The notes under the pieces were generated by a model, which made no database searches, was not told the DNA's origin, and was given only the letters and a program-made list of their open reading frames with translations. Shown here in pieces: positions 28,443-49,788 of a stretch of DNA of 64,000 nt (position 1 is its first letter; the number at the start of each line of letters is the position of its first letter). Location: positions 186,001-250,000 of the forward strand of contig NZ_QDKM01000005.1 in NCBI RefSeq assembly GCF_003076755.1. The letters run 5' to 3'. The stretch comes from Pararhodobacter oceanensis. Lineage in GTDB: Bacteria; Pseudomonadota; Alphaproteobacteria; Rhodobacterales; Rhodobacteraceae. Position numbers and translations under genes: made by a program.

Positions 28443-28880
28443 ACATAGTCTCCCTGTTGTTCACTGGGGCGCGTATTGTGCGCGACCCATCGCTCCCGTG
28501 CATACAGCATGTGACATTTTGTATTATCTGTGAATACGCTAAATTATTAATTTTCGCCCCATGCGCGCCGTTTGCACGGGTTTTCTGCCCGTCAAACACA
28601 CTGCTTTGTGGGTTAAGTTACTAATTAATAACAATATGTATGGGATTCGGCATCTGTTTCAGCGTCCCGATTTGCAAAGATCTATGCGGTTTGCGCTCCT
28701 TTCGCCAGCCCCTCCGCGCGCGGATTTAGCTTTTCTAAACTGCAAGCCAGTTTCCCTCGCTTCCCCGAGGTCAGGCGGGGCCGTAACACTAAAGGTAAGT
28801 CGGGTCTGCATCTTCACAGGCCTGCTGTTTGTGACGGTGGCCATAGGGCCGACCGAAGGAAAACTCACGGAGGAAAGCAA
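28443..28880. promoter_or_regulatory. Divergent region between TRAP system 1 and the di-iron gene
   Basis: These 438 bases are notably AT-rich in the middle (28500-28640) compared with the surrounding DNA. They contain the TGCATACA box near the TRAP gene and a GGAGG ribosome site before 28881. I see no open frame that looks coding. Confidence 0.55.
28499..28506. promoter_or_regulatory. TGCATACA box 1 (TRAP system 1)
   Basis: TGCATACA lies 57 bases before the TakP-like gene. The same 8-mer (either strand) occurs in four other promoter regions here, at 30831, 40067, 43022 and 49781. It is proposed as an operator for the GntR/FCD protein at 43084. Confidence 0.55.
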
Positions 28881-29576
28881 ATGGTTGATGTGCGTCAAGT
28901 CAGGGGTGGGGACGGTCTGACCGGCATCCGCGAGGAAGTCGACGCGATGCTGGATGCGGTGGTCGAGAACACCCGCCAGGCGACGGTGTCTTTCTTTGAT
29001 AAATATGCCGAGAACCCCGATCCGAAGATTCTGGCCGCATGGCTGGAGCCACGGGCATGGCGCGAAATCGACTATGTGTTCCTGCTCAATGAACAGATCC
29101 GCCGCTACGGCATGCAGTTCTCGCGCAAGCATATCACGCTATTGGCCAAACAGTCGTTCCAAGAGGCCGAGCATTACGAAGACGTCGGCCGGGTGATTGA
29201 ATCGCTGGGCGGCACGGTGCCGACCTCGGTGCCGGAATCGGCGAAGCCGTGGAGCGACTTTCTCTGGGAGTGCCTCGACCGTCACCCGCTGGCCGCGATT
29301 GCCGCGTGGAACCTGTCGGAAACCTCGGCCTCGGGCAGCTTTGAGCCGACCTTTGAAGCGGGCGAGAAATTCGGCTTCGATACGGTGGTGAAAGTCTACA
29401 AAAAGATCGCCATCGACGAGAAATTCCACGTCGGTCTGGGCACCCAGATCCTGGCCGATTACGCGAAAACCGACCACGACCGCGAGGAAATCCTGCGCGC
29501 GATGCGCGGCATGCGCGACATCGCGTGGAAGACTTTCACGCCGGAATCGGTCGCTGAAAGCATGGCGGCGCAGTAA
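28881..29576 (+). CDS. Ferritin-like di-iron protein, candidate oxygenase
   Basis: I do not recognise a named family, but this 231-residue, all-helical, soluble protein carries the classic di-iron ligand set. Glu95-x2-His98 is in FQEAEHYED, Glu147 in NLSETSA, Glu180-x2-His183 in IDEKFHVG, and Glu62 or Glu71 supplies the first helix. Such four-helix carboxylate-bridged sites activate oxygen in oxygenases and oxidases, or store iron. The next gene is a VanB-type reductase with flavin and 2Fe-2S domains, the usual electron donor for an oxygenase. ATG 28881 follows GGAGG. A 9-bp hairpin separates it from the reductase. Confidence 0.75.
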   Translation: MVDVRQVRGGDGLTGIREEVDAMLDAVVENTRQATVSFFDKYAENPDPKILAAWLEPRAWREIDYVFLLNEQIRRYGMQFSRKHITLLAKQSFQEAEHYEDVGRVIESLGGTVPTSVPESAKPWSDFLWECLDRHPLAAIAAWNLSETSASGSFEPTFEAGEKFGFDTVVKVYKKIAIDEKFHVGLGTQILADYAKTDHDREEILRAMRGMRDIAWKTFTPESVAESMAAQ

Positions 29577-29658
29577 CCGCCGCACCGCAAACGGGGCCCG
29601 CCGCGCACCGCATGCGGGACCCGTCGCTGACGCTTGCCTCCCTATAGCGTCGCACTTG

Positions 29659-29686
29659 CCCTTCGCCAAAACTGTCCGGCGAAGGG
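29659..29686 (+). other. Hairpin between di-iron protein and reductase
   Basis: CCCTTCGCC (29659-29667) and GGCGAAGGG (29678-29686) form a perfect 9-bp stem with a 10-base loop. Only a weak T run follows, so it may reduce rather than stop read-through into the reductase gene. Confidence 0.55.
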
Positions 29687-29713
29687 CTATTTCACCCAGC
29701 ATTGAGGATCGCC

Positions 29714-30679
29714 ATGATAATGGAAGACAGCATCGTTTCTGCCGCGCAGCTCGAGGTCGAGATCGCGCAGATCACGCAGGAAGCCGAGGGCGTGGTCTCG
29801 CTGATCCTGCGCGCGCCCGATGGCACGGCGCTGCCGACATGGCAGGCAGGAGCCCATATCGATGTGATCCTGCCGAACGGGCTGGTGCGGCAGTATTCGC
29901 TCTGCGGTGACGCGCAAGATTGCAGCACATGGCGGATTTCGATCCTGCATGAGCGCGAGGGGCGCGGCGGCTCGGCCTATCTGCACGGGCATATCAAAGC
30001 CGGCGACCGCATCCGCGTCTCGCAGCCGCGCAACAATTTCAAACTGGCCGAGGCCGAACATTACAAATTTGTCGCCGGTGGCATCGGTATCACCCCGATT
30101 CTGGCGATGATTCATGAGGCCGAGGCAGCGGGTAAATCCTGGTCGCTGCTCTATGGCGGGCGTTCACGCAACACGATGGCGTTTCTGGACGACCTCGCGC
30201 GGTTTGGCGACAAGGTGACAATCGCCCCGCAAGATGAGGTCGGTCTGCTGGATCTGGGCGGCTATCTTGGCGCCGATGACGATGGCGCCCATGCCTATGT
30301 CTGCGGTCCCGGCCCGCTGATCGACGCGGTCGAAGCGCAATGCGCGTCTTGGCCTGCGGGCAGGCTGCACCGCGAGCGATTTGCGCCCAAGCAAAAGATC
30401 ACCGCCGAGCCCGGTGGCTTCGAGGTGCAGCTGGCGCAATCGGGTGAGCGGATCTATGTGCCGCCCGATGAAAGCCTGCTCGACGTGCTGCAAGACGCCG
30501 GTCACGAGGTCACCAATTCCTGCACGGCAGGGATTTGTGGCACCTGTCTGGTCAATGTTCTGGCCGGTGAGCCGGATCATCAAGATGACGTCCTGTCCGA
30601 CGCAGATCGCGCCTCGGGCAAGATGATGCTGGTCTGTGTGTCGCGCTCGAAATCGGATCTTCTGGTGCTCGACCTGTGA
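29714..30679 (+). CDS. PDR/VanB-family oxygenase reductase
   Basis: This soluble reductase (321 aa) moves electrons from NAD(P)H through FMN and a 2Fe-2S centre to an oxygenase. The flavin motif RQYSLCGD is at 59-66, the nucleotide-binding GGIGITP at 122-128, and VCGPGPLI at 196-203. The C-terminal plant-type ferredoxin has Cys270, Cys275, Cys278 (SCTAGICGTC) and Cys308. The order is that of phthalate dioxygenase reductase and VanB. ATG 29714 is preferred to the TTG at 29702. It follows a ferritin-like di-iron gene by 137 bases, so it is probably its partner. Confidence 0.92.
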   Translation: MIMEDSIVSAAQLEVEIAQITQEAEGVVSLILRAPDGTALPTWQAGAHIDVILPNGLVRQYSLCGDAQDCSTWRISILHEREGRGGSAYLHGHIKAGDRIRVSQPRNNFKLAEAEHYKFVAGGIGITPILAMIHEAEAAGKSWSLLYGGRSRNTMAFLDDLARFGDKVTIAPQDEVGLLDLGGYLGADDDGAHAYVCGPGPLIDAVEAQCASWPAGRLHRERFAPKQKITAEPGGFEVQLAQSGERIYVPPDESLLDVLQDAGHEVTNSCTAGICGTCLVNVLAGEPDHQDDVLSDADRASGKMMLVCVSRSKSDLLVLDL

Positions 30680-30717
30680 TGTAAAACCCCCGATCCGGCG
30701 ATGATTTTTATACCTCC

Positions 30718-30740
30718 TCCCCTCCGCGGGAGGGGGTTTT
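30718..30740 (+). terminator. Rho-independent terminator after the reductase gene
   Basis: CCCCTCC (30719-30725) pairs with GGAGGGG (30729-30735) over a 3-base loop and is followed by G and TTTT, 40 bases after the stop codon. This separates the di-iron/reductase pair from TRAP system 2. Confidence 0.8.
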
Positions 30741-30813
30741 CGGCGTTCCCTAAATTCCAGAGAAACACCAGAGACACGCTTTGAAATCAATGGCTTATGC
30801 AGGTTCAAAACTG

Positions 30814-30838
30814 TTGACAGGCTGGATGGCTGTATGCA
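30814..30838 (+). promoter_or_regulatory. TGTATGCA box 2 with nearby TTGACA (TRAP system 2)
   Basis: TTGACA (30814-30819) is a good -35 element. TGTATGCA (30831-30838) lies in the spacer or -10 zone behind it, about 97 bases before the binding-protein start. A regulator bound there would block RNA polymerase. The -10 hexamer itself is not obvious. Confidence 0.55.
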
Positions 30839-30934
30839 GAGTCACCTGAATTGCGTGTAATTTGATAGTCAGTGTGCGCAAATTGAGCGAGTGGAAAAAC
30901 ACCGCCATCCCCACCAACACGAGGAAGACCATCT

Positions 30935-31933
30935 ATGAAATTCTTCAGCAAACTCACTGCGGCAACCGCGCTGGTTTCGGCCATGGCGGTTGTTCCGGCC
31001 GTCGCCGCCGAATTCGAGTTCAAATTCGCCAATGTCGAAGCCCCGCAAAGCATCGGTGGCCAAGCGACACAGGCCTTCGCCAATTGTGTGCAAGAGGGCA
31101 GCAACGAGCGGATCAATATCACCATCTTCCCGTCGGGCGCTTTGGGCAACCAGACCGACAATCTGGAATCGATCCGCACCAATCTGATCGACTTCACGCA
31201 GGTGGTGTCGCCGATCGTCACCGTGGATCCGCTGCTGTCGGTGTTCACGCTGCCTTATATCTTCCGCGACCGTGACCATGTCGACCGCGTGATGCATGGG
31301 CCGGTGGGCAGTTTCGTCGCCGAGCGTCTGGCTGCGCGCAATGTGATTGCGATTGGCTATTGGGAAGGCGGTTTCCGCCAAATCACCAACAATGTGCGCC
31401 CGATCCATACACCCGCCGATCTGGAAGGTATCAAGCTGCGCACGCCCAGCGACCTGAGCCGCATCATGCTGTTCCAATCGCTCGGTGCGAACGCCTCGGC
31501 GCTGCCCTGGTCCGAGGTCTATTCGGCGCTGCAAACCGGCGTCTATGACGGGCAGGAAAACCCCGCACTCTATGTCGAGGATGCCAATCTCTTCGAGGTG
31601 CAGAACTACCTGTCGTTCACCTCGCATGTCTACGGCGTCAGCTATCTGGTGATGTCCGAGCAAGCCTACGACTCGCTGCCGCAGGATCTGCGCGTGGTGG
31701 TGCGGGAATGCGGGCGGATCTCGGGTGAGGAATCGGTGGCCTACGGTGCCCAGGCCGATGCCGAGGCCGAAGAGCGGGCGATCGCGCGCGGCATGGAGGT
31801 GAACACCGCCGATGTCGCTGCTTTCATGGCCGCCGCGCAGCCGCTGCATATGGAAATGATCAGCAACACAATGTCGGACGAGGATGCCGAGACCGCGCGT
31901 GCGCTGCTGACCAGTATCCAGAACACGCATTGA
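30935..31933 (+). CDS. dctP: TRAP substrate-binding protein (DctP), system 2
   Basis: This periplasmic receptor of 332 residues has a Sec signal (KLTAATALVSAMAVVPAVAA). The family features are LPYIFRDRDHVDRVM, an Arg-centred loop in LEGIKLRTPSDLSRIMLFQSLG, and ALPWSEVYSALQTGVYDGQENP, all typical of the DctP clade that binds C4 or other organic acids through the conserved Arg. It is distinct from the TakP type at 27348. It is the first gene of a five-gene transcript that continues through both permeases, a proline-racemase-family enzyme and a hydroxyacid dehydrogenase. The solute is probably the substrate of those enzymes. Confidence 0.92.
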   Translation: MKFFSKLTAATALVSAMAVVPAVAAEFEFKFANVEAPQSIGGQATQAFANCVQEGSNERINITIFPSGALGNQTDNLESIRTNLIDFTQVVSPIVTVDPLLSVFTLPYIFRDRDHVDRVMHGPVGSFVAERLAARNVIAIGYWEGGFRQITNNVRPIHTPADLEGIKLRTPSDLSRIMLFQSLGANASALPWSEVYSALQTGVYDGQENPALYVEDANLFEVQNYLSFTSHVYGVSYLVMSEQAYDSLPQDLRVVVRECGRISGEESVAYGAQADAEAEERAIARGMEVNTADVAAFMAAAQPLHMEMISNTMSDEDAETARALLTSIQNTH

Positions 31934-31973
31934 TCGGAATCCGCTGATTAACGGTTTGGGAGGAAAGTGAACC

Positions 31974-32510
31974 ATGTGGATATTCGACAAACTACTCGAA
32001 GTCGCAGTGGGGGCGTTGATCGTCATCGCCACTGTCGTCGGTTTCGCCGAGGTGGTCTCGCGCTATGCGCTGGGCGGGTCCATTGGCTGGTCATATGAGT
32101 TTTTGCAGATCGTTTTGGTCTACATCACCTTTGTGGGCGGGTTCTTGGCAACGCGGACCAGCAGTCATCTGCGGGTGACGGTCATCGTCGAGGCGCTACC
32201 GCGGAATATCCGGTTCATCTGCTTTCTGGTGGCAAAGTCTGGCATTGCCATCACCACCGTCGTGATGACGATCTGGGGCTGGGAATACGCGTTCCGTTTT
32301 TCCGGCTCCGCCACTGATATCCTGCGGGTGCCGGTGGTCTATCTTTACATCGTCGTGCCGATCTGCGGGTTTGCGATGACCCTTCAGGTGATCGCGGATC
32401 TCGTCTTGGGCATTTGGAAATTCTTCACCGAGGGCGAGGCCGAGACGTTTGACTTCACGCTGCCCGGCTTTGGCGAGGAAATGGACGCAGAAAAGGGTCT
32501 TCAGACATGA
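31974..32510 (+). CDS. dctQ: TRAP transporter small permease (DctQ), system 2
   Basis: This 178-residue membrane protein has four hydrophobic segments. Family motifs are the RYALGGSIGWSYEFLQIVLV block, the loop TRTSSHLRVTVIVE, and the ending with an acidic C-terminal tail. A ribosome site (GGGAGGAAAG) precedes ATG 31974. The stop overlaps the DctM start by four bases (32507-32510). Confidence 0.9.
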   Translation: MWIFDKLLEVAVGALIVIATVVGFAEVVSRYALGGSIGWSYEFLQIVLVYITFVGGFLATRTSSHLRVTVIVEALPRNIRFICFLVAKSGIAITTVVMTIWGWEYAFRFSGSATDILRVPVVYLYIVVPICGFAMTLQVIADLVLGIWKFFTEGEAETFDFTLPGFGEEMDAEKGLQT

Positions 32511-33787
32511 TGTTCGCGGCTTTCGGAGGCCTGTTGGTCGCGATTGGAATCGGCATGCCGATTGCCTTCGCCCTGTCCACCATCTCGATTATTATCCTCT
32601 GGTATGCGGATGTCAGCATGCTGGTCGCGGTGCAGCGGATTTACCAAGGCACCAATAAATTCCCCTTCCTTGCGGTGCCCCTGTTTATCTTTGCGGGTTC
32701 GCTGATGAACCAAGCGGATATCTCGCGCCGCTTGGTTGATTTCGCTGCGACGCTGGTCGGGCGGATGCGCGGCGGGCTGGCGGGGGTCAATGTGATCACC
32801 AGCATGTTGTTTGCCGGTATGAGCGGCACCTCGATGTCCGACACCGCAGCCGTCGGCGGGATCATGATCCCCAATATGATCAAACGCGGCTATGACCGCG
32901 CCTTTACCGCCGCCGTCACCGCTGCGTCCTCGACCATCGGTGTGCTGCTGCCGCCGAGCCTGCCGATGGTGGTCTTGGCCTCCTATATGGGGATCTCGAC
33001 AGGGGCCTTGTTCATCGCCGGCGTGGTGCCGGGGCTGTTGGTCGGTTTCGGCCTGATCATCGCCGCTTGGATCATCTCGGTGATCCGCGAATATCCGGTG
33101 GAAGAGAAATTCGAACTTGGCCGCTTTCTGCGCGCCTTTGTCGCCGCGATCCCGCCGCTACTGATGCCCTTGATCATCATCGGTGGCATTCTGGGTGGCG
33201 TGTTTACTGCCACCGAGGCGGCGGGGATTGCCTGTATCTACGGGATCATCGCCGGTTTCTTCATCCTGCGCACGCTGAACATGCTCAAGCTCTACTATGC
33301 GATCCGCGACGCCGCGATCCTGACCGGCGCGACGATGTTCGTCACCGCCACCGCGCATGTGCTGGGCTTTACCTTCACCTTTCAGCAGTTCAGCGCCACC
33401 ATCACCGGCTATTTCAACACCGCCGATATGGGCCCGCTGGCCGTGCTCTTCACCCTGTCGCTGGTGATGATCCTTCTGGGCATCTTCCTTGACGGGTTCG
33501 CGATGATGTTCATCGTCGTACCGCTGTTCCTGCCGACCGCGATCTCGGTGGGCATCGAGCCGATCCACTTTGCCATGGTGCTGATCATGTGCTGGGGGCT
33601 TGGCCAGCAGACACCACCGATGGCCTCGGCCCTGTTCCTGACCAGCCTGATGGCCCGCGTCGATGTGATTTCGATCACCCGCGCCAATCTGTGGTTCATT
33701 CTGGTGATGGGTGGAATTCTCGGCCTCGTCATCCTGTTCCCGTATCAAACGGTGCTTTGGCTTCCGCAAAAAGCCGGTCTTCTCTGA
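32507..33787 (+). CDS. dctM: TRAP transporter large permease (DctM), system 2
   Basis: This is the large permease of 426 residues with about twelve membrane spans. Typical blocks are FAGSLMNQADISRRLVDFA, FAGMSGTSMSDTAAVGGIMIP and VGPTEAAG-like sequence (here FTATEAAG), plus the closing LMARVDVISITRANLWF. It lacks the insertion seen in the system-1 DctM. It is followed after 42 bases, on the same strand, by the proline-racemase-family gene, so transport and metabolism are probably on one mRNA. Confidence 0.93.
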   Translation: MMFAAFGGLLVAIGIGMPIAFALSTISIIILWYADVSMLVAVQRIYQGTNKFPFLAVPLFIFAGSLMNQADISRRLVDFAATLVGRMRGGLAGVNVITSMLFAGMSGTSMSDTAAVGGIMIPNMIKRGYDRAFTAAVTAASSTIGVLLPPSLPMVVLASYMGISTGALFIAGVVPGLLVGFGLIIAAWIISVIREYPVEEKFELGRFLRAFVAAIPPLLMPLIIIGGILGGVFTATEAAGIACIYGIIAGFFILRTLNMLKLYYAIRDAAILTGATMFVTATAHVLGFTFTFQQFSATITGYFNTADMGPLAVLFTLSLVMILLGIFLDGFAMMFIVVPLFLPTAISVGIEPIHFAMVLIMCWGLGQQTPPMASALFLTSLMARVDVISITRANLWFILVMGGILGLVILFPYQTVLWLPQKAGLL

Positions 33788-33829
33788 GCGAGAAATCCGG
33801 CCCACTTCCCTGACTGATAGGAGTTTACC

Positions 33830-34846
33830 ATGAAAGTCGCCGCCTATGTTGATGTCTCGTATACCCAGACCGAGGGTATGACGACGGCGCTGATCAACAA
33901 CCAGTTCCACTTCCCTGCCGGGCTCGATATTCTGGGCAAGCGCGAATATTTCAAAGAGCATTACGACTGGATCCGCGCCGGTATCATGCGCGAGCCGCGC
34001 GGTCATAATAACCAGTTCGGCGGCGTCATCGTTCCGTCCTCGACGCCCGAGGCCGATATCGGGGTGATCTGGATCGACTGCGTCGGCTACGGCGATATGT
34101 GCGGACATGGCACGATTGCGACCTCGACGCTGATGGCCTCGAACAACCTGCTGCCGCGTCAGGACGGTGAAAGCCGCCTGCGTCTGGAAACCCCCGCCGG
34201 TATCGTCACCTCCGAGGTGTTCACCGAAGGCGACCAGATCACCGGCTGCCGGTTCCAGAACGTGCCCGGCTATCTGGCCGAAAAGGATATCACCGTGACC
34301 GTGCCCGAACTGGGCGACATCCAGGTCGATATTGCCTTTGGCGGCAACTACTTCATCACCGTCAAGCTCGATCCGGCGGTGAAGCAGGTCAGCCCCGAGA
34401 ATTCGGCATGGCTGGGCCATATGGGCAATGTGATCAAGAACCAGATCAACGCGCGCTTCCAGCTGACCCATCCCGAAAAGCCGCATATCACCGAGATTGA
34501 CCTGGTCACCTTCTACCACGAAGTACCGGGCGATAACGCCGATTACCGCTGGGTCCATGCCTACCGCGATGGCAGTCTCGACCGCTCGCCGGGCGGCACC
34601 GGCACCTCGGCGATGCTGGCGATGCTGGAAGGCCGCGGGTTGATCAAGATGAACGAGAAGGTGCGCGCGCAGGGTATGTTGGGCCTTGGCACCTTTGAGG
34701 GTGAATTGATCGGCGAGACCAAGATCGGCAACCACCGCGGTGTGGTCTCGACGGTCAAGGGCCGCTCGAAGCTGATCGGTTTCGGCAAATGGTTCATGGA
34801 CCCAACCGATCCGGTGGGCCGCGGCTACGACGTCGCTCAGCTGTAA
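33830..34846 (+). CDS. Proline-racemase-family enzyme with Cys/Gly active site
   Basis: This 338-residue protein belongs to the proline racemase/4-hydroxyproline epimerase/trans-3-hydroxyproline dehydratase family. The first catalytic residue, Cys91, is intact in CVGYGDMCGHGTIA. The second position, Cys in racemases and epimerases or Thr in the dehydratases, is Gly255 (DRSPGGTGTS). A family member with one thiol only is more likely to catalyse a dehydration or a one-base reaction than racemisation. GGNYFITV and SPENSAW are other family contacts. It sits in the TRAP system-2 transcript, directly before an FMN hydroxyacid dehydrogenase. Confidence 0.85.
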   Translation: MKVAAYVDVSYTQTEGMTTALINNQFHFPAGLDILGKREYFKEHYDWIRAGIMREPRGHNNQFGGVIVPSSTPEADIGVIWIDCVGYGDMCGHGTIATSTLMASNNLLPRQDGESRLRLETPAGIVTSEVFTEGDQITGCRFQNVPGYLAEKDITVTVPELGDIQVDIAFGGNYFITVKLDPAVKQVSPENSAWLGHMGNVIKNQINARFQLTHPEKPHITEIDLVTFYHEVPGDNADYRWVHAYRDGSLDRSPGGTGTSAMLAMLEGRGLIKMNEKVRAQGMLGLGTFEGELIGETKIGNHRGVVSTVKGRSKLIGFGKWFMDPTDPVGRGYDVAQL

Positions 34847-34848
34847 CC

Positions 34849-36024
34849 ATGAATAATGCCGCGCCCAAAATCCGCCGGCTGTCGGAGGCCCTCAATATCG
34901 AGGACCTCCGCACGCTCGCCCGCCGCCGAATCCCCAATTTCGCGTTTGAATACGTCGATGGCGGGGCCGAGGATCAGGTGACCATGGCCGCCAACCGCAA
35001 CAGCTTTCGCCAGATCCGTCTGGTGCCACGGCAGCTGCGGGATGTGTCGCGCATTGATCTTGCGACACAGTTTTTCGGGCGCGGCGTCAAACGCCCGTTT
35101 GCGATCTGTCCGACCGGCTACAACGGCATGCTGACCCACCACGGCGACCTGAAACTGGCGCGCGCGGCGGCGAAATTCGGCATTCCGTTCATTCAAAGCA
35201 CGATGTCGACCTCGTCAATCGAAGAGATCGCCGCCGAGATGAAGGGTGGCGAGCATTGGTTCCAGCTTTACGTGCTCAAGGACCGCGCGATCAGCAAACG
35301 GTTGATGGAGCGCGCCCATACGGCGGGCTGCACGACGCTGGTGATCACCACCGATGCGGTGATCCTTGGCAACCGCGAGAGCGATCGGCGGAATTTCTCC
35401 AAGCCGCAGGTGCCGACATGGCGCAACAAGATCGACACCGCGCTGAAGCCGCGCTGGATTTTCGATGTGCTGGTGCCGCATGGCATCCCGATCTTCGGCA
35501 ACCTGACCGAGTTCCTGCCGAAAAGCCAATGGTCGGCGGCGGATGGGGCGCGGTTTATCTCGGAGCAGATGGAGCGCGCGCTGAATTGGCAGCGCATTGA
35601 AGAGCTGCGCGCGGATTGGCCCGGAAAGCTGGTGATCAAGGGTTTGATGCATCCCGAGGACGTCAAACGCGCGGTTCAGGCCGGGGCCGATGGCGTTGTG
35701 GTCTCGAACCACGGCGGGCGGCAGCTTGACGGATCAGCCACGCCTCTGGACCAGATCGCGCAAATCAAAGACGCGGTCGGCGACAGTTGCGAAATCTACG
35801 CCGACAGCGGGTTTCGCCGGGGCTCGGATGTCGCCAAAGCGCTGTCTCTTGGCGCGCGCGGCGCCTTCTTCGGCCGCGCCACGCTTTACGGGCTGGGCGC
35901 TGGCGGGCAGGCGGGGGTCGAGGCGGCGCTGGGCATGTTGTCCAATGAGCTCGAGACCTGCATGGGCCAGATCGGCTGCACCAGCATCGACGGGCTGCGC
36001 GAGATCGAGATGGTCCGCGATTGA
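34849..36024 (+). CDS. FMN-dependent alpha-hydroxy acid dehydrogenase
   Basis: This 391-residue TIM-barrel flavoprotein oxidises a 2-hydroxy acid to a 2-oxo acid, like lactate, mandelate and glycolate oxidising enzymes. The base His288, with Arg291, lies in SNHGGRQLDGS. Earlier FMN contacts are in ICPTGYNGMLTHHGD, QSTMSTSS and QLYVLKDR. The substrate Tyr in FEYVDGGA is also present. ATG 34849 lies two bases past the previous stop. The protein has no membrane segment. An lldD or mdlB name would be over-reach because the acid is not identified. The neighbour chain (isomerase, this enzyme, a ThDP enzyme, an aldehyde dehydrogenase) mirrors mandelate-type degradation. Confidence 0.9.
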   Translation: MNNAAPKIRRLSEALNIEDLRTLARRRIPNFAFEYVDGGAEDQVTMAANRNSFRQIRLVPRQLRDVSRIDLATQFFGRGVKRPFAICPTGYNGMLTHHGDLKLARAAAKFGIPFIQSTMSTSSIEEIAAEMKGGEHWFQLYVLKDRAISKRLMERAHTAGCTTLVITTDAVILGNRESDRRNFSKPQVPTWRNKIDTALKPRWIFDVLVPHGIPIFGNLTEFLPKSQWSAADGARFISEQMERALNWQRIEELRADWPGKLVIKGLMHPEDVKRAVQAGADGVVVSNHGGRQLDGSATPLDQIAQIKDAVGDSCEIYADSGFRRGSDVAKALSLGARGAFFGRATLYGLGAGGQAGVEAALGMLSNELETCMGQIGCTSIDGLREIEMVRD

Positions 36025-36029
36025 GCTCG

Positions 36030-36089: not shown

Positions 36090-37031
36090 TTAGACCTTGA
36101 ACGCTTTGGGCCGTGAGAACGACATAATCCAGTCGCGCAGTTTCGGGCTGAAGGGTTTCGAAAAACTCGACCGGTCCCACGCCAGATAATAGGCGTCCTG
36201 TAAGCGTAGCCTATGGTCAATCGGGATGATCAGCCGTCCTGTGCGCAGGTCTTCCGAGATCATCGCTATCTGCCCCAGCGCCACGCCGCGTCCGCTGATC
36301 GCCGCGTCAATTGCCACCGAGGAATGCGAAAAGGTCAGTTCCCGCAGCGGCGCACGCGGAGTGACGCCCATGCTTTGCGCCCAATCGCTCCATGTCGGTG
36401 CGGGCGGCAGGGTCATATCCCATTCGATGCCCAGAAGTGGCTGTTCGAGCAGGTCTTCGGCACTATAGACGCCGGAATGCGCCAGAAACGCGGGCGCGCA
36501 GACCGGCACCACGGAATCGGTGAACAATTCGACAAAATGGTCATGGCCGGCAATGCGGCGGCTGTAGGTGATCCGGTAATCGACGCCTGAATTCCCCAGA
36601 TCCGGCTCAACATCGCTGCTGACCAGCCGCACATTCGCATCGGGGAATTTCGCCTGCCAGTCGCACAGGCTGGGGCCGAGCCATTTGTTCGCCAGAGAGG
36701 GCAGCGTCGACAGGGTGATCGTGCCATACCCGCGGGCTTGGTCGATCTTGTCCTCGGCGCTGCGGATCAGGGTAAACGCCTTGGCGATATCCTCGTGATA
36801 CATCTGCCCCCAAGAGGTGAGCCGCATCTGGTTTCCGGCCCGCTCGATCAGTTGCAGCCCGAGATGCGCCTCAAGCTTGCGCAACTGCTGGCTGACCGCG
36901 CCGGAGGTCACGCCAAGCGCCTCGGCGGTCTCGCCGACGCTGTGGAGGCGGCCAAACAGATCGAACGCCTGCAGGGCCTTGAGCGGCGGCGGTTCGCGGC
37001 GCGGAGCGGCATCGGCTTTGTCTTGCGGCAT
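36090..37031 (-). CDS. LysR-family transcriptional regulator
   Basis: This 313-residue regulator has a winged-helix DNA-binding domain at about 15-75 (FGRLHSVGETAEALGVTSGAVSQQ in parts) and a two-lobe effector-binding domain. It resembles the GcvA/AmpR-like group in its layout. ATG 37031 is preceded by an AGGAGGAG ribosome site, so the longer frame to 37142 is rejected. It faces the TRAP system-2 genes tail-to-tail and lies near the ammonia-lyase gene on the same strand. It could control either. No autoregulatory T-N11-A box was identified with confidence. Confidence 0.9.
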   Translation of the reverse strand: MPQDKADAAPRREPPPLKALQAFDLFGRLHSVGETAEALGVTSGAVSQQLRKLEAHLGLQLIERAGNQMRLTSWGQMYHEDIAKAFTLIRSAEDKIDQARGYGTITLSTLPSLANKWLGPSLCDWQAKFPDANVRLVSSDVEPDLGNSGVDYRITYSRRIAGHDHFVELFTDSVVPVCAPAFLAHSGVYSAEDLLEQPLLGIEWDMTLPPAPTWSDWAQSMGVTPRAPLRELTFSHSSVAIDAAISGRGVALGQIAMISEDLRTGRLIIPIDHRLRLQDAYYLAWDRSSFSKPFSPKLRDWIMSFSRPKAFKV

Positions 37032-38562: not shown

Positions 38563-38570
38563 TGGAAGCT

Positions 38571-40025: not shown

Positions 40026-40066
40026 ACTTGGTCTCCTTTCATCACTGCATAAAGCCATGACGCGAG

Positions 40067-40095
40067 TGTATGCAAGATAATTATTACTGTCGACA
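40067..40095. promoter_or_regulatory. TGTATGCA box 3 and TGTCGACA palindrome
   Basis: TGTATGCA (40067-40074) and the perfect palindrome TGTCGACA (40088-40095) lie in the 128-base divergent promoter between the aldehyde dehydrogenase and the SDR gene. The first is shared with four other promoters in this window. The palindrome is a second operator candidate. Confidence 0.5.
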
Positions 40096-40153
40096 ATGTT
40101 TGACGGATTGGCAACAAGGTGGTATCAACATTGAAACTTTACGGAGAGCTGAG

Positions 40154-40942: not shown

Positions 40943-40950
40943 GGCAAATC

Positions 40951-42612: not shown

Positions 42613-42679
42613 TCCCTTAGCCAACATATCGCGCGCGCCACCCGCAGGCGGGCGCCCTCAAACACAGACGGAGAGAGCA

Positions 42680-43012
42680 ATGAAAATCTGGAAAGATGGC
42701 GATAAAACCGGCGTCACGCCACCGGCGCATTTTGGCGACCTGAAGGTGCTGGATGTGGTGCCCTTTGGCGACGGCGATTTCAGCGTGCAGATCTCGCGCG
42801 CCCCCAAGGGCGGTGGCGGCGAGTTGCACCATCACGATACATGGTCGCAGGTGTTTTTCATCATGGAAGGCGCGCTGACCTTTGACACCGGTTCGGAACG
42901 CTTCACCCTGACCCAAGGGCAGGCGGTGCTCTTCGAGCCCAAAGACCCGCATTACACGCTGAACGAGCAGGATGGTGATTGCGTCGCCATGGTCATCACG
43001 GTAAAACATTGA
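42680..43012 (+). CDS. Small cupin-domain protein
   Basis: This is a single-domain beta-barrel cupin of 110 residues. The first cupin motif is GGGGELHHHDTWSQVFFIMEG, with its histidines and a Gln, and the second runs FEPKDPHYTLNEQDGD. The histidines would bind a metal. Such proteins are dioxygenases, isomerases or sensors. Nothing here distinguishes them. It follows the ThDP enzyme with a GGAGAGAG ribosome site and precedes the GntR gene on the same strand, so it may modify an intermediate or sense one. Confidence 0.85.
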   Translation: MKIWKDGDKTGVTPPAHFGDLKVLDVVPFGDGDFSVQISRAPKGGGGELHHHDTWSQVFFIMEGALTFDTGSERFTLTQGQAVLFEPKDPHYTLNEQDGDCVAMVITVKH

Positions 43013-43021: not shown

Positions 43022-43040
43022 TGCATACATTTGGCGTATG
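43022..43040 (+). promoter_or_regulatory. TGCATACA box 4 (GntR promoter)
   Basis: TGCATACA (43022-43029) lies 62 bases before the GntR start. Its CATAC core pairs with GTATG (43036-43040) across seven bases. This fits autoregulation by a dimeric GntR-type protein. Confidence 0.55.
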
Positions 43041-43083: not shown

Positions 43084-43776
43084 ATGCGTCACATGACCAA
43101 AGTTGCTCCTGCCGTCTCATCGACCGCAAATATTATTTCTGTGCTCGAAGACGAGATCTTGAACGGCACCCTCGCACCCGAAGACCGGCTTGACGAACAG
43201 GGGCTGGCGCGACGCTTTAATGTGTCGCGCACGCCGATCCGCGAGGCGCTGCGGCATCTGGCCTCCAGCGGTCTGGTGGATATCAAACCCAATCAAGGCA
43301 CCACCGTGCGCCGGTTGACCACCTCGGATCTGATCGAGATGTTTCAGGTTTTTGGTGAGCTCTGCGGGCTCGGCGCGCAATTGGGCGCCCGCCGGCTGAG
43401 TTCCGCCGAAATCGACAAGCTGCGCGCGCTCAATCAGGTCTGTGCCGATGCCGCCGAGGAAGATGACGCCGACAAGTTTTTCCGCGCCAATCTCGAGTTC
43501 CACGATTTCCTCGATGCGCGGTCAAAGAACAATTACCTGCTGTCCGAGATCCACAAGATGTCGAAGCATCTGAATGCCTACCGGCGCTTCATCACTCTGC
43601 AGCCGCGGCGGATGATGCGCTCGGTCGAGGAGCACAACCAGATCATCGACGCAATCGGCAAGGGTGACGAAGAGGCGGCGCATATCCTGATGCGCAAACA
43701 CGTCAACCTGCTGGCCGGATCGGCGACGGATGTGCTGATCGCGCTGGAAAACAAGCACGGGCCGAGCGACGGGTAG
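43084..43776 (+). CDS. GntR/FCD-family transcriptional regulator
   Basis: This 230-residue regulator has an N-terminal winged helix (LARRFNVSRTPIREALRHL and LVDIKPNQGTTVR) and a C-terminal all-helical FCD domain. The FCD metal-binding residues are in FRANLEFHDFL and HNQIIDAI, with a late His in MRKHVNLL. FCD proteins usually repress and are released by an organic acid. Start 43084 (MRHMTK) is used, and ATG 43093 is an alternative because AAGGA is at 43076-43080. It ends the SDR-ThDP-cupin group. It is the only GntR in the window and the prime candidate to bind the TGCATACA boxes. Confidence 0.9.
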   Translation: MRHMTKVAPAVSSTANIISVLEDEILNGTLAPEDRLDEQGLARRFNVSRTPIREALRHLASSGLVDIKPNQGTTVRRLTTSDLIEMFQVFGELCGLGAQLGARRLSSAEIDKLRALNQVCADAAEEDDADKFFRANLEFHDFLDARSKNNYLLSEIHKMSKHLNAYRRFITLQPRRMMRSVEEHNQIIDAIGKGDEEAAHILMRKHVNLLAGSATDVLIALENKHGPSDG

Positions 43777-44039: not shown

Positions 44040-47000
44040 TCACGCCAATTCCACCAGCAGATCCTTCGCGTCGATCTGCCCGCCCGGCACCACATGCACC
44101 GCCTTCACCACCGCGTCGCGCTCGGCGTAAAGCCCGGTTTCCATCTTCATCGCCTCGACGGTCAGCAACAGGTCATTGGCCTTCACGTCGCGCCCGACCT
44201 CCACCGAGACACTGGCCACCACGCCGGGCATCGGCGCGCCGATATGCGCGGGGTTGCCCGCCTCGGCCTTGGGTCGCGCTTTGGTCGCAGATTTGACCAG
44301 ACGGTTGGGCACCCGCACCACCCGCGGCTGGCCGTTAAGCTCAAAGAACACCCGAACCTCGCCGTCGTCATCGGTCTCGCTGAGTGCTTGCAGGCGGATT
44401 TCCAAGGTTTTGCCGGGGTCGATCTCGGCGGTGATTTCCTCGCCCGGTTCCATCCCGTAAAAGAACGTCCGCGTCGGCAAGGAACGCACCGGCCCATAGC
44501 TGCGGTGACGCCCCATATAGTCGAGAAACACCTTGGGATACATCAGATAGCCGTTGAGATCCTCGTCATCCACCGCGCGCCCGTCCAACTTGGCGCTGAG
44601 CTCCGCGCGGGTGGCCTCAAGATCCACCGGCGGCAGCGATTTGCCGGGGCGCTCCAGACAGGGGCGCTCGCCCTTGAGCGCCTTGTCCAAAAGTGCGGGC
44701 GGAAAACCCCCCGGCGGCTGGCCGAGATTGCCGCGCAGCATGTCGAGAACGGAATCCGGAAACGACACCTCGCGTTTGGGGTCTTCGACCTGCGCGCGGG
44801 TCAGCCCCTGCGTGACCATCATCAGCGCCATATCGCCGACCACCTTTGACGAGGGCGTGACCTTGACGATATCGCCGAACATCTGGTTCACATCGGCATA
44901 GGTCTGCGCGACCTCGGGCCAGCGATCCTCGAGCCCCATGGCGCGGGCCTGCTCTTTGAGGTTGGTGAACTGGCCACCGGGCATCTCATGCAGGTAAACC
45001 TCGGAGGAGGGCGCGGAGGAGCCGGATTCAAACGCCGCGTAATGGCCCCGCACCCCCTCCCAATAATCGGAAATCTCGCGCACCGCAGCGATATTCAGCC
45101 CCGTACAGCGCTCGCTATGCGCCAGCGCCTCGACAATCGAGCCCAGCGGCGCCTGCGAGGTGTTCCCCGCCAGCGCATCCATCGCGCAATCCACCGCATC
45201 GACACCGGCATCGGCGGCGGCGAGGATCGTCGCGCTGGCCATGCCGCCGGTGTCATGGGTGTGGAAATGGATCGGCAGCCCGACCTCTTCTTTCAGCGCG
45301 CGGATCAACACGCGGGCGGCGGCGGGTTTCAACAATCCGGCCATATCCTTAAGGCCCAAGACATGCGCGCCAGCCGCCTCCAACTCGCGGGCCATGCCGA
45401 GGTAATACTTCAGATCATATTTGGCGCGGTCGGGGTTCAGGATATCGCCGGTATAGCAGATCGTGGCTTCGCACAGCTTACCGGCGTCAATCACCGCATC
45501 CATCGCCACGCGCATATTCTCGACCCAGTTCAGACTGTCGAACACGCGAAACAGATCAACGCCGGTCTCGGCGGCGCGGGCGACAAAGGCCTGCACCACA
45601 TTGTCCGGGTAATTGGTGTAGCCAACCCCGTTCGAGCCGCGCAGCAGCATCTGGGTCATCACATTGGGCAGGGCCGCGCGCAGATCGCGCAGCCGCTGCC
45701 ACGGGCATTCCTGCAAGAACCGATACGCCACATCAAAGGTCGCCCCGCCCCAGCATTCGACCGAGAAGAGCTCGGGCAGATGCGCGGCATAGGCAGGGGC
45801 CACGCGGATCATATCGCGGCTGCGCATACGGGTGGCCAGCAGGGACTGGTGCCCGTCGCGCATGGTGGTGTCGGTGATCAACAGCCGCTGTTGCTGCTTC
45901 ATCCAATCCGCCACCGCCTGCGCCCCGTGTTGTTCCAGCAGGTTGCGGGTGCCCATCTGCGGGGTGACGCGGGGCTTGGGCGCGCGCGCCTCTTTCAACG
46001 CCGGATCAGGGCGCGGGCGGTCCTTGGTCTCGGGGTGCCCGTTGACGGTGATATCGGCGATATAGGTCAGCACCTTGGTGCCCCGGTCGCGGCGCTTGGC
46101 GAAATCAAACAGCGCGGGCGTCTGGTCGATGAATTTGGTGGTGTAGTCATTGCTCAGGAAGGTCGGGTGTTTCAGCAGGTTTTCGACAAAGGCGATATTG
46201 GTGGAAACCCCGCGAATGCGGAACTCGCGCAGCGCACGGTCCATCCGCGCAATAGCGGTCTCGGGCGTCTGTGCATGGGTGGTGATCTTGACCAGCAGAC
46301 TGTCGTAATAGCGGGTGATCACCCCGCCCGAATAGGCGGTGCCACCATCCAGCCGCACGCCCATGCCGGTGGCCTCACGAAAGGCGGTGATGCGGCCATA
46401 ATCGGGGATGAAATTATTCTGCGGGTCTTCGGTGGTGATCCGCGTTTGCAGGGCATGGCCGCGTAGCTCGATCTCGTCTTGCGAGGCTTTGCGCGTGGCC
46501 TCAGCCAAGGTTTTACCCTCGGCAATCATGATCTGCGCCTGCACGATGTCGATGCCGGTGACCTCCTCGGTCACCGTATGTTCGACCTGCACGCGCGGGT
46601 TCACCTCGATGAAATAGAAGCGCCCGGTATCCATATCCATGAGGAATTCAACGGTGCCGGCGCATTCGTAATTCACATGTTTGCAAATCTTATAGCCCAG
46701 CTCGCAGACCTCGGCGCGCTGCGCGTCCGTCAGATAGGGGGCGGGCGCGCGTTCGACGACCTTCTGGTTGCGCCGCTGCACCGAGCAATCGCGCTCATAG
46801 AGGTGATACATATTGCCGTGTTTGTCACCAAGGATCTGCACCTCGACGTGGCGCGCGCGCAGGATCATCTTTTCCAGATAGCCTTCGCTGTTGCCAAAGG
46901 CAGCGGCGGCCTCGCGGCGACCCTCCAAGAGCTTTTCCTCCAGCTCCTCGGGGCCTTCAATCGCGCGCATCCCGCGCCCGCCGCCGCCCCATGACGCCTT

Positions 47001-47480
47001 GAGCATCAGGGGATAGCCCAACGCCTCGGCCTCGGCGCGGATCGCGTCGAAATCATCGCCCAGCACATCCGTGGCGGGGATCACCGGCACGCCCGCCTCG
47101 ACGGCAATGCGCCGCGCGCTGGCCTTGTCGCCGACCTGCCGCATGGTCTTCGCCTGCGGGCCGATGAAAGTGATTCCGTTGGCGACGCAGGCATCGACGA
47201 AATCGGGGTTTTCGGCCAGCAGACCATAGCCCGGGTGGATCGCATCGGCACCGCATTCGCGGGCAACGCGGATGATCTCGTCGATGCTTAAGTAAGCGGC
47301 GACCGGCCCCAGACCTTCGCCGATCCTATAGGCTTCATCGGCCTTGAACCGGTGCAGGGACAGCTTGTCCTCTTCGGCAAAGACCGCGACGGTGCGTTTG
47401 CCCATCTCGTTGGCGGCGCGCATGATGCGAATGGCAATCTCGCCGCGGTTGGCGATCAGGATCTTGGTGAATTCGGTCAT
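44040..47480 (-). CDS. pyc: Pyruvate carboxylase
   Basis: This single-chain 1146-residue enzyme carboxylates pyruvate to oxaloacetate for anaplerosis. The order is biotin carboxylase (residues 1-~450: ILIANRGEIAIRIMRAAN and the ATP-grasp GGGGRGMRAI), carboxyltransferase TIM-barrel (~535-800: DTTMRDGHQSLLATRMRS, and the metal site around HFHTHDTGG), allosteric linker, and biotin carrier with the lysine in VEAMKMETGLY at about 1112. It matches full-length bacterial PYC. The gene is not obviously co-transcribed with its neighbours. It could refill oxaloacetate when the nearby catabolic routes yield pyruvate, but that is inference. Confidence 0.97.
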   Translation of the reverse strand: MTEFTKILIANRGEIAIRIMRAANEMGKRTVAVFAEEDKLSLHRFKADEAYRIGEGLGPVAAYLSIDEIIRVARECGADAIHPGYGLLAENPDFVDACVANGITFIGPQAKTMRQVGDKASARRIAVEAGVPVIPATDVLGDDFDAIRAEAEALGYPLMLKASWGGGGRGMRAIEGPEELEEKLLEGRREAAAAFGNSEGYLEKMILRARHVEVQILGDKHGNMYHLYERDCSVQRRNQKVVERAPAPYLTDAQRAEVCELGYKICKHVNYECAGTVEFLMDMDTGRFYFIEVNPRVQVEHTVTEEVTGIDIVQAQIMIAEGKTLAEATRKASQDEIELRGHALQTRITTEDPQNNFIPDYGRITAFREATGMGVRLDGGTAYSGGVITRYYDSLLVKITTHAQTPETAIARMDRALREFRIRGVSTNIAFVENLLKHPTFLSNDYTTKFIDQTPALFDFAKRRDRGTKVLTYIADITVNGHPETKDRPRPDPALKEARAPKPRVTPQMGTRNLLEQHGAQAVADWMKQQQRLLITDTTMRDGHQSLLATRMRSRDMIRVAPAYAAHLPELFSVECWGGATFDVAYRFLQECPWQRLRDLRAALPNVMTQMLLRGSNGVGYTNYPDNVVQAFVARAAETGVDLFRVFDSLNWVENMRVAMDAVIDAGKLCEATICYTGDILNPDRAKYDLKYYLGMARELEAAGAHVLGLKDMAGLLKPAAARVLIRALKEEVGLPIHFHTHDTGGMASATILAAADAGVDAVDCAMDALAGNTSQAPLGSIVEALAHSERCTGLNIAAVREISDYWEGVRGHYAAFESGSSAPSSEVYLHEMPGGQFTNLKEQARAMGLEDRWPEVAQTYADVNQMFGDIVKVTPSSKVVGDMALMMVTQGLTRAQVEDPKREVSFPDSVLDMLRGNLGQPPGGFPPALLDKALKGERPCLERPGKSLPPVDLEATRAELSAKLDGRAVDDEDLNGYLMYPKVFLDYMGRHRSYGPVRSLPTRTFFYGMEPGEEITAEIDPGKTLEIRLQALSETDDDGEVRVFFELNGQPRVVRVPNRLVKSATKARPKAEAGNPAHIGAPMPGVVASVSVEVGRDVKANDLLLTVEAMKMETGLYAERDAVVKAVHVVPGGQIDAKDLLVELA

Positions 47481-47685: not shown

Positions 47686-48321
47686 TTAACCGCGGGCGAA
47701 AATCCGCCCGAGACTGTTGCGCAGCACCGCCCAAAGCAGCGTGAGCGCGTTCAGCTCGTTCTTTTTCTGCCGCGCGGGGCGGGCAGGGGCAGCAGCGGGG
47801 GCCTCACCGGCATTGGCGGCAGGTGCAGCGCCGGCTTCTGGCGCCACCGCGGCAACGGGTTGCGCCTCGGCAGCGAGTTCGGCGTTCAGGTTCTCGGCGA
47901 AATCGCGGGTGATCTGCGCCGCCACGGCGTCGACAATCCCGCCACGGGCAAATTGCGCCAAAGTGCCGCTGATCGTGTAATCGACCACCACTTTGACCAG
48001 CGTTGCAGCACCACCCTCGGCCTCTTCGAGGTGATAGTTCACCTTCCCCTTGGCCCGCGCGCCGTGCTTTTTATCGCTGCCCAGCCCGTTGATCAGCCCG
48101 CTTTGCGCCGCTTCATCGGGAATGATCGTCGCCTCGCCGGTGAAATTCGCTTTCACCGGACCCAGTTTGACGGTCATCTGGCCGGTCACCTTGCCGTCGA
48201 CGGGCGGCGCTTCGAGCGAGGCGCCCGGGATGCAACCGACAATCTTCGGGATGTCCTGAAAAGCCTCCCAGACCTTCGCGCGGGGCTGGTTGACGGTGAA
48301 TTGTTGTTTGATCTCGGGCAT
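47686..48321 (-). CDS. CoxG-like SRPBCC protein
   Basis: This 211-residue protein opens with an SRPBCC/CoxG domain (PEIKQQFTVNQPRAKVWEAFQD, CIPGASLE, and YTISGTLAQFARGGIVDAVA), a fold that binds hydrophobic ligands and is often found with aerobic CO dehydrogenase-type operons. A Pro/Ala-rich linker follows, then a C-terminal hydrophobic or amphipathic segment (LTLLWAVLRNSLGRIF) that may attach it to the membrane. A molybdenum hydroxylase of the Cox type lies 1.5 kb away, across the deacylase. ATG 48321 is preferred to GTG 48330. Confidence 0.85.
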   Translation of the reverse strand: MPEIKQQFTVNQPRAKVWEAFQDIPKIVGCIPGASLEAPPVDGKVTGQMTVKLGPVKANFTGEATIIPDEAAQSGLINGLGSDKKHGARAKGKVNYHLEEAEGGAATLVKVVVDYTISGTLAQFARGGIVDAVAAQITRDFAENLNAELAAEAQPVAAVAPEAGAAPAANAGEAPAAAPARPARQKKNELNALTLLWAVLRNSLGRIFARG

Positions 48322-48375
48322 ATTAGGCACTCGCTTTCGTTAGTTCGGAGGGCTTTGCGGTAAGTTAGGCGGCGA

Positions 48376-49647
48376 TCACTCCTCGACGCCGCACCAGTCC
48401 ATCAGGCAAAGCGCCATCACTTTGATCGAAGTGATGTAGTCGTCGATCGACACATATTCGTCGTTGGAATGCATCACCGCGGTCGAGCCGGGGCCGAAGA
48501 TCACCGTCGGCGTATCGGCGTATTCATTGAGGAACCGCGTGTCAGCCGCGCCCTGACGGCCCGAGATTTCCGGCTGTTTGCCAGTGATCTCGGTATAGGC
48601 CGAGGACACCAGATCAACCACCGGATGATCGACGGGGATTTCCGACGCCTGCGCGTCATAGCCGACAAACCGCACCACCGGCGGGTGGTCGCGCATCCAC
48701 TCATCGGTCTCGGCCAGCGCCGCGATCTTGTCGACGAGGCTTTGCTTGACGCCCTCGTGATCCTCGCCCGGCACGGTGCCGATCGAACCCTTCAGCAGCG
48801 CGGTATCGGGGAAGGCGCTGGGATAGTTGCCGGCCTGAAACGAGCCGATGATACAGGGCAGCGAATCCACCGCGCTGGGATAGAGCGGATGGGTCACGGT
48901 GGCGATGCGCTCGGCCTCCAATTCGGCGACCGCAGCGGCGACCTTATTGCCCAGATCAATGCCGCTGATGCCGTTATAGCGCTGCTGGATACCGGCGGGT
49001 TTGCCCTGCACCGAAATCTCGAACCAGATGCGCCCGATACAGGCCGGCTGCACCGCCAGATCGCTGGTCTCGCCCGAGATACCGGCGTCGGCCTTATAGC
49101 CGCGCATCACCGTGTCCAAAGTGCCGTGGCCCGAGACTTCCTCGTCGATCACCACGTTGATATAGACGTCGCCCTTGAGCTTGACGCCCATCTGCTTGAG
49201 GTATTCGACCGCCAGAATATGGCTGGCGACACCGCTTTTCATATCCGCCGTGCCGCGCCCGTAGATGCGGCCGTTTTCGATTTTCGCCGACCACGGATCA
49301 TCGCTCCAGCCTTCGCCTTTGCCGACGGGGATCACATCGGTATGGCCGTTGAGCAAAAGCGAGCGCCCGCCGCCGGTGCCTTTATAGGTGGCGACGATAT
49401 TGGGGCGGCCCTCATAGCCCATGGCGACCGGACGATAGCCCGGGTGTTTCTTGAGCTCGTCCCAATCCGTCTCCCACATGTCGACATCAAGGCCGATTTT
49501 GTTCATATAGTCGGCGACGAACTTCTGGATCGCGCCCTCGTCGCCGGTGACGCTGGGGATCGCCACCATCTCTTGCAGGAACGCCACCGCATGGTCGCGC
49601 TTCTGGTCAATGGTGCTTAGGATTTTCTGCCGGTTTGCGCTGCTCAT
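48376..49647 (-). CDS. ArgE/DapE-family M20 deacylase
   Basis: This is an M20 zinc amidohydrolase of 423 residues. The metal and base residues are His102 and Asp104 (GHTDVIP), Asp135 (GTADMKSG), and Glu169/Glu170 (IDEEVSGHG). The dimerisation domain sits between. Members cleave N-acyl amino acids or succinyl-diaminopimelate. Specificity is not shown by the sequence, though the length is that of acetylornithine-deacetylase-like proteins. ATG 49647 follows GAGGA. It is divergent from the Mo-hydroxylase operon, with a TGCATACA box between them, and its product could feed or follow that enzyme. Confidence 0.9.
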   Translation of the reverse strand: MSSANRQKILSTIDQKRDHAVAFLQEMVAIPSVTGDEGAIQKFVADYMNKIGLDVDMWETDWDELKKHPGYRPVAMGYEGRPNIVATYKGTGGGRSLLLNGHTDVIPVGKGEGWSDDPWSAKIENGRIYGRGTADMKSGVASHILAVEYLKQMGVKLKGDVYINVVIDEEVSGHGTLDTVMRGYKADAGISGETSDLAVQPACIGRIWFEISVQGKPAGIQQRYNGISGIDLGNKVAAAVAELEAERIATVTHPLYPSAVDSLPCIIGSFQAGNYPSAFPDTALLKGSIGTVPGEDHEGVKQSLVDKIAALAETDEWMRDHPPVVRFVGYDAQASEIPVDHPVVDLVSSAYTEITGKQPEISGRQGAADTRFLNEYADTPTVIFGPGSTAVMHSNDEYVSIDDYITSIKVMALCLMDWCGVEE

Positions 49648-49780
49648 CTGGGTGTCCTCATTGATCACTATGCTGGCGGTGTTGCTGTTGCGGCCCCGCG
49701 CGTGGATAGATGTCGCAAGGGGCACATGTGAATCAGACCATAAACACGGCCCTACAATATGTCTACAACATCTTTATTAT

Positions 49781-49788
49781 TGCATACA
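49781..49788. promoter_or_regulatory. TGCATACA box 5 (deacylase / Mo-hydroxylase)
   Basis: TGCATACA lies in the 221-base divergent promoter, 134 bases before the deacylase and 81 before the Mo-hydroxylase medium subunit. The flanks are AT-rich (TCTTTATTAT before it). Confidence 0.55.

Follow-up and report, generated by a model that had tools for sequence, protein, structure and literature searches.

Five copies of the 8-mer TGCATACA in a 64,000-nucleotide stretch of the Pararhodobacter oceanensis genome (contig NZ_QDKM01000005.1, positions 186,001 to 250,000 of the forward strand) are probably operators of the FCD-type GntR regulator encoded at 43084-43776, mostly paired at a distance of 21 base pairs (bp), through which several importers and enzyme operons would be jointly controlled. 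This whole stretch is referred to below as the window, and coordinates are those of the window unless another contig is named. The sites, their match to the operators of the regulator's relatives, the 21-bp register and the recurrence of that register in relatives were all computed and are presented first.

Distribution of the boxes

The window contains five exact matches to TGCATACA and no others, at the very places given by a first-pass annotation of this DNA. They are listed here with their rank under the operator matrix described in the following section.

28499 to 28506, plus strand: box TGCATACA before TRAP system 1; exact match; outside the 25 best matrix positions
30831 to 30838, minus strand: box TGCATACA before TRAP system 2; exact match; matrix rank 21
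40067 to 40074, minus strand: box TGCATACA between the aldehyde dehydrogenase and short-chain dehydrogenase/reductase (SDR) genes; exact match; matrix rank 2
43022 to 43029, plus strand: box TGCATACA before the regulator gene; exact match; matrix rank 9; no 21-bp partner
49781 to 49788, plus strand: box TGCATACA between the deacylase and molybdenum hydroxylase operons; exact match; matrix rank 1

According to gene calls made with a crude script of our own rather than a standard gene finder, all five are intergenic and close to start codons, as had been claimed, while the intergenic share of the window is 12%. The centre of the box is 60 bp from the start codon served at 28499, 100 bp at 30831, 46/84 bp at 40067, 58 bp at 43022 and 116/84 bp at 49781, giving a range of 46-116 bp. 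Shuffling yields a chance expectation of 1.00 copies in the window (standard deviation, sd, 0.93), in agreement with the earlier estimate of about one, and five were reached in 0 of 100 shuffles. Only TGCATACA and one other 8-mer, GGGCCAAA, have all five copies in five separate intergenic regions of the window. The whole-genome scan for promoter versus coding hits that the annotation had proposed (4.08 Mb) returned 17 copies of TGCATACA, 11 intergenic and 6 coding, one of the latter (L003) sitting at a predicted start codon. Five of these 17 fall inside 21.3 kb, where 0.064 would be expected from the rate of the 12 outside copies; the corresponding Poisson P(≥5) is 8e-9 before correction for the choice of 8-mer (about 33,000) and of stretch (about 190).

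The palindrome type as such seems to be avoided in this genome. By first-order expectation, TGCATGCA (25 places against 178) and TGCATACA (17 against 59) are far under-represented, and the perfect palindrome TGTATACA has no match in the whole genome against 4.9 expected.

Operators of the regulator's relatives

Upstream of genes for relatives of the regulator, TTGTATACAA, TTGTATGCAA or a near form is found. In a first set of relatives TGYATRCA was present upstream in 12 of 20 at 110 bits or more and in 4 of 15 below that score (16/35), and a matrix was built from these 16 operators out of 35 upstream stretches, with one duplicate dropped and no site of the window included. When applied to the window, this matrix places 49781, 40067, 40088 and 49760, in that order, at the top, all of them intergenic, with 43022 in 9th, 30852 in 10th and 30831 in 21st place. 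A second set, which may overlap with the first, consisted of the best 80 of at least 593 relatives and carried TGYATRCA between -300 and +60 in 40 of 80, against 1 of 80 control windows (for each locus one stretch of 360 bases, placed 1000 bases downstream from its start and shorter at some contig ends). The best site scored 8 or more in 50 of these 80, of which 39 had an exact TGYATRCA, reduced to 32 after collapsing similar flanks. The operator type TTGTATRCAA, described for FCD regulators as TG-nnnn-CA at the own promoter and at neighbouring operons, is thus seen at the own box 43022 and in 40/80 and 16/35 of the relatives' upstream stretches.

The genome holds 14 FCD genes, and the TGYATRCA box stands in the own stretch of the window regulator only (1/14). 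The proposal made at first pass, that the boxes belong to the local FCD regulator, gains support from this count, from the boxes upstream of relatives and from the ability of the relatives' matrix to find those of the window. A genome of the same genus (L055) carries two such FCD genes (8927 and 15116) 6 kb apart and each with a box of its own, TTGTATACAA and CTGTATGCAA.

A 21-bp register

Around the boxes, further sites recur at multiples of 21 bp, which corresponds to two helical turns. They are given without strand.

28520 to 28527: weak partner TGTATTAT, 21 bp from box 28499
30852 to 30859: partner TGCGTGTA, 21 bp from box 30831; matrix rank 10
30873 to 30880: additional site TGTGCGCA, at 42 bp from box 30831
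40046 to 40053: weak additional site TGCATAAA, 21 bp (one register) from box 40067 on the side away from 40088
40088 to 40095: partner TGTCGACA, 21 bp from box 40067; matrix rank 3
40109 to 40116: weak additional site TGGCAACA, 42 bp (two registers) from box 40067
49760 to 49767: partner TGTCTACA, 21 bp from box 49781; matrix rank 4

A partner is therefore present at four of the five boxes, one of them weak (28520), and the rows read 28499/28520 (weak), 30831/30852/30873, 40046 (weak)/40067/40088/40109 (weak) and 49760/49781, with 43022 alone. When all spacings around the five boxes are compared, 21 bp is the best and 42 bp the second, the observed sum being reached by 0 of 5000 flank shuffles at any spacing; with the spacing fixed at 21 bp, the five partners, 43022 included, have a combined P of 1.5e-7. 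The 16 operators of the first set also show their best mean partner score at 21 bp, the matrix having been built from the same sites. For the second set, too, 21 bp gives the highest mean partner score, which exceeds the mean by 4.9 sd, and a partner matching at least 6 of 8 positions is found at this distance in 16 of 39 operators, against a mean over all spacings of 1.6; with similar flanks collapsed the figures are 13 of 32 at 21 bp and 1.1 at other spacings. What is conserved across the regulator's distant relatives is the operator type together with its spacing. A literature search, whose coverage omits most subscription papers, found no report of the 21-bp register, which is not proof that it is unpublished.

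The rest of the genome served as a control. Of the 12 copies of TGCATACA that lie elsewhere in the genome, C4:372216 alone is accompanied by a partner 21 bp away, a TGTCGACA identical to that of 40088; at ±21 bp none of the other 11 scores above -13. This pair precedes a complete TRAP operon on another contig (DctP, DctQ and DctM by Pfam). The pattern TGYnnRCA-N13-TGYnnRCA occurs at five places of the genome (40067/40088, 49760/49781, C4:372216, C10:72559 and C17:4799, the last being inside a gene), against one for the reversed control. TGYnnRCA-N13-TGCATACA is found three times in the own genome, once in each of 11 of the 294 other genomes of the family and in none of the remaining 283; eight such places outside the own genome (as locus or listed match) share a common GC-rich spacer, and on our reading of the letters most of them look like one conserved coding stretch. 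The idea of one regulon, put forward at first pass, is thereby supported and extended; the 21-bp partners and the C4 target had both been missed.

Some further sites were met in these scans. The TRAP operon on C4 (L104, G000:C4:362300-382261, 5250-9917) lies 0.15 kb from the end of what we read as a tripartite tricarboxylate-type transporter gene set, near an MttB-family methyltransferase. At G000:C10:72559-72587 (L109) a perfect tandem TGTGCACA-N13-TGTGCACA stands between two called genes, in the same 21-bp register and with a different core, and perhaps belongs to another regulator. The most symmetric genomic copy, TTTGCATACAAA (L105 8475, G000:C1:213474), lies between an AMP-binding synthetase gene, MatB-like by sequence, and a ferredoxin gene, and has no 21-bp partner.

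The regulator

43084 to 43776, plus strand: FCD/GntR regulator, 230 amino acids (GntR 1.5e-17, FCD 1.4e-23)

Both domains exceed the Pfam cut-offs (GntR 63.4 bits, cut-off 27; FCD 84.1 bits, cut-off 24.3), which places the protein in the FCD subfamily of the GntR superfamily, and its start is the ATG at 43084, preceded by AAAGGA. In an alignment of 17 sequences H140, H184, H206 and N136 are invariant, which amounts to the three His plus Asn/Asp of an FCD metal site, and we read these residues as metal ligands on the basis of PMC7797058. The best sequence matches in the PDB include Atu1419 and AlkR, with Atu1419 matching the alignment at 4.6e-30; both belong to the VanR group of FCD proteins, which is marked by a six-helix effector domain lacking a domain swap. 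In Agrobacterium fabrum, Atu1419 is a VanR-group FCD repressor binding ATGTATACAT, and Arg45 of its recognition helix reads a guanine (PMC7797058). R49-T50 of the window regulator, likewise invariant in the 17 sequences, are on our reading the counterparts of Atu1419 recognition-helix residues, an equivalence that would explain the fixed TG and CA and the four variable middle bases.

The closest relatives of the regulator in the searched genomes reach about 45% identity at most. When its own sequence was used to search 84,980 genomes, 35 stretches matched a pattern and 0 were relatives; among 394 genomes of the family only the own genome and one relative of 44% identity pass 1e-45, and among 18 genomes of the genus the best match elsewhere is 43%. 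Similarly, for orthologous promoters of the deacylase (1e-150) and of DctP of TRAP system 2 (1e-100), only the own genome of 295 passes, although weaker homologues exist.

Proposed mechanism

From these features we infer how binding, cooperativity, repression, induction and operon limits may fit together. A regulator dimer would bind each palindromic TG-nnnn-CA site, with the recognition-helix arginine reading the TG/CA steps. Where importers or enzymes are served, the sites are mostly 21 bp apart, so that neighbouring dimers would share one face of the helix across the promoter and jointly keep it off. Repression is the most likely mode, in view of the position of the sites and by analogy with Atu1419, NanR and AlkR. 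The regulator would be released by an imported compound, either a carboxylate or something amino-acid-like, or by a product thereof, and this would switch on TRAP systems 1 and 2 and the third TRAP system on C4 (G000:C4), as well as the aldehyde dehydrogenase, the SDR/thiamine diphosphate (ThDP) enzyme and the deacylase/molybdenum hydroxylase operons, while the single box at 43022 would serve autoregulation. The scope envisaged at first pass, two importers and about 14 enzyme genes, would follow if the presumed operon limits, repression and common substrate hold.

Several observations weigh against this reading. Once corrected for about 33,000 8-mers and about 190 stretches, the count of TGCATACA alone is borderline, and neither the degenerate TGYATRCA (5 in the window against 3.78 expected) nor one-mismatch matches to the box (22 against 32) are enriched; the borderline count and the unenriched TGYATRCA made independent tests necessary. 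The boxes 28499 and 30831 have poor matrix scores, 28499 being outside the 25 best, and the box at the regulator's own gene, 43022, has no 21-bp partner. The window boxes are the hybrid TGCATACA, whereas relatives mostly carry TGTATACA, and 40 of the 80 relatives of the second set are without such a box. In the relatives' partners TG is clearly enriched, C less so and the last A not. Finally, no orthologous regulator or cluster was found in the searches described above, and hence no orthologous promoter for comparison or footprinting.

Alternative explanations

It is unlikely that the boxes are FCD operators whose 21-bp partners reflect mainly promoter geometry, in the form of -35 and -10 elements resembling TGTnnACA and TGTATACA, so that one dimer would act per promoter with no cooperative pairing. 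Promoter-like hexamers overlap sites at three of the four scanned regions (TCGACA/TACACT over 40088 and 40067, TAGACA over 49760 and GATAAT over 28520), and this overlap, together with the enrichment of TG above CA in relatives, implies that promoter geometry may contribute to the 21-bp signal. However, taking the direction of the gene, relatives have a partner upstream of the box in 10 cases and downstream in 9, with both present in 3, which argues against a pure -35/-10 effect, as promoter elements would be one-sided. Moreover, neither half-site is missing from the partners TGTCGACA and TGTCTACA, the second-best spacing in the window is 42 bp, and the region 30680-30940, with its row of three members, yielded no promoter-like site. 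Box 30831 had been assigned at first pass to a TTGACA promoter; a TTGACA is indeed present at 30814-30819, yet no acceptable sigma-70 site turned up there in the promoter scan.

That the boxes are used by another regulator, be it the LysR-type protein encoded at 36090-37031 or one of the genome's further FCD proteins, is improbable. A LysR gene does lie inside the cluster, the genome has 13 other FCD proteins, and three boxes read TGCATACAGC and 49781 reads ATTGCATACAGCAAT, a possible dyad whose halves are 5 bp apart; yet this TGCATACAGC extension is absent at 40067 and 43022, the sites match operators beside relatives of the window's own regulator, and 0 of the 13 other FCD genes have a box in their own stretch. 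A chance cluster, selected among many 8-mers, is highly implausible: the cluster alone is borderline over all 8-mers and stretches and GGGCCAAA shares its intergenic distribution, but the relatives' matrix, the partner spacing and the genome controls are support independent of the 8-mer count.

Genes of the cluster

The genes behind the boxes, which under joint control by the FCD regulator would form its regulon, and their neighbours are as follows.

25273 to 28442, minus strand: TRAP system 1, with DctM (25273-26649) and DctP (27348-28442) assigned by family and, in the DctQ position, a protein (26646-27125) without NCBIfam match, named by place
30935 to 36024, plus strand: TRAP system 2 (DctP, DctQ, DctM), proline-racemase family protein (33830-34846) and flavin mononucleotide-dependent dehydrogenase (34849-36024); putative operon
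36090 to 37031: LysR-type protein inside the cluster
37209 to 40025, minus strand: aldehyde dehydrogenase (38571-40025), then diaminopropionate ammonia-lyase (37209-38402) after a 169 bp gap; presumably co-transcribed
40154 to 43012, plus strand: SDR (40154-40942), ThDP enzyme (40951-42612) and cupin (42680-43012)
44040 to 47480: pyruvate carboxylase, named from sequence, between both halves of the cluster
47686 to 49668, minus strand: M20 deacylase (48376-49668) and CoxG (47686-48321)
49869 to 53583, plus strand: molybdenum hydroxylase in three genes, the flavin adenine dinucleotide subunit (49869-50738, by Pfam), then the 2Fe-2S and large subunits (from sequence and Sinorhizobium meliloti CoxS/CoxL-like matches)

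The enzymes allow a guess at an amino-acid-like or N-heterocyclic substrate. At strict thresholds only the own genome passes in the family sample for homologues of the 28881 protein, the deacylase and DctP of TRAP system 2, and together with the single 44% relative of the regulator this suggests a lineage-specific, perhaps acquired, set. The M20 deacylase shares about 80% identity with a deacylase of S. meliloti pSymA (locus L194). Relatives of the molybdenum hydroxylase, CoxG and the ammonia-lyase (49%) are also found there, along with F420 genes (cofE and an F420-dependent LLM oxidoreductase), and a common breakdown pathway is hinted at by this grouping. The only TGYATRCA of the pSymA locus is a TGCATGCA about 3.9 kb before the deacylase, so that the genes are held in common and the operators are not.

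An orphan protein of 231 amino acids (28881-29576) precedes a ferredoxin-type reductase (29720-30679) and is possibly a new oxygenase component; it has no Pfam, NCBIfam or PDB sequence match at the limits used, and none in the 294 other family genomes (1e-20) or on plasmids. A single-sequence AlphaFold2 model of it (mean pLDDT, the predicted local distance difference test, 37.6) was not used. The ammonia-lyase has an 82% identical paralogue at G000:C16:19719-20906, beside an amidohydrolase-like gene and an ATP-binding cassette importer. Contig C16, which also carries a TGCATACA, was considered as a second cluster and rejected, the box being intragenic, about 15 kb off and without a partner.

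Relation to known systems

FCD regulators are numerous, with 14 in this genome, but a short degenerate palindrome is a poor guide to their targets. The requirement of a 21-bp partner narrows the 17 genomic copies of TGCATACA to five (C4 and four boxes of the window, one of these weak) and adds a target on another contig. It is a genuine but tentative possibility that rows of operators at exactly two helical turns represent an old, general device of this FCD clade across bacteria. If so, neighbouring dimers or the halves of a tetramer would lock on one face of the DNA, one strong site and several degenerate ones would form a single co-operative switch, and a partner at ±21 bp would be a signature that predicts the regulon.

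The nearest named neighbours of the regulator are MatR-like regulators of malonate genes, a group marked by linkage to genes for malonyl-CoA decarboxylase and a synthetase. In the 91 loci of relatives, malonyl-CoA decarboxylase is nearby in 12 and a MatB-like synthetase in 12, and TTGTATACAA boxes at one locus (L049) resemble those of the window. However, identity to these proteins is about 40-45%, and neither malonyl-CoA decarboxylase nor MatB is among the 20 cluster proteins scanned.

Escherichia coli NanR is likewise of FCD type and places several dimers side by side, co-operatively, on one operator, but its (GGTATA)3 direct repeats are in close contact, whereas here full palindromic sites recur every 21 bp (PMC8012715). 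AlkR of Pseudomonas aeruginosa is a VanR-group repressor that has a strong palindrome and, in addition, two weak sites, and binds a long fragment with the stoichiometry of a tetramer; it differs by its ATTGTCAGACAAT core, and a fixed spacing is not seen in the part of that paper available (PMC12042122). For FadR- and HutC-subfamily regulators, Suvorova et al. (2015) described co-operative double sites with constant spacing, in divergons with the regulator gene; the available text gives no 21-bp value, its additional half-sites are 7-12 nt from the site centre, and positions -20 and -21 served there as random background (PMC4494728). Atu1419 likewise has the FCD fold, represses a catabolic region and binds palindromic ATGTATACAT operators, of which one lies over a -10 box; a tetramer in solution, it can hold two palindromes and also tolerates a degenerate one (PMC7797058). 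In contrast, 190 or 109 bp separate its palindromes, and a DNA loop bridges them (PMC7797058), while those of the window are adjacent, 21 bp apart and on one helix face. This opens a structural question that can be put to the test, namely how dimers would meet at two helical turns, compared with a VanR-DNA structure in which the palindromes are far apart. With side-by-side co-operativity already known in FCD regulators from NanR, and double sites of constant spacing from Suvorova et al. (2015), what is new here is the occurrence of full palindromic sites in a 21-bp register that recurs in distant relatives.

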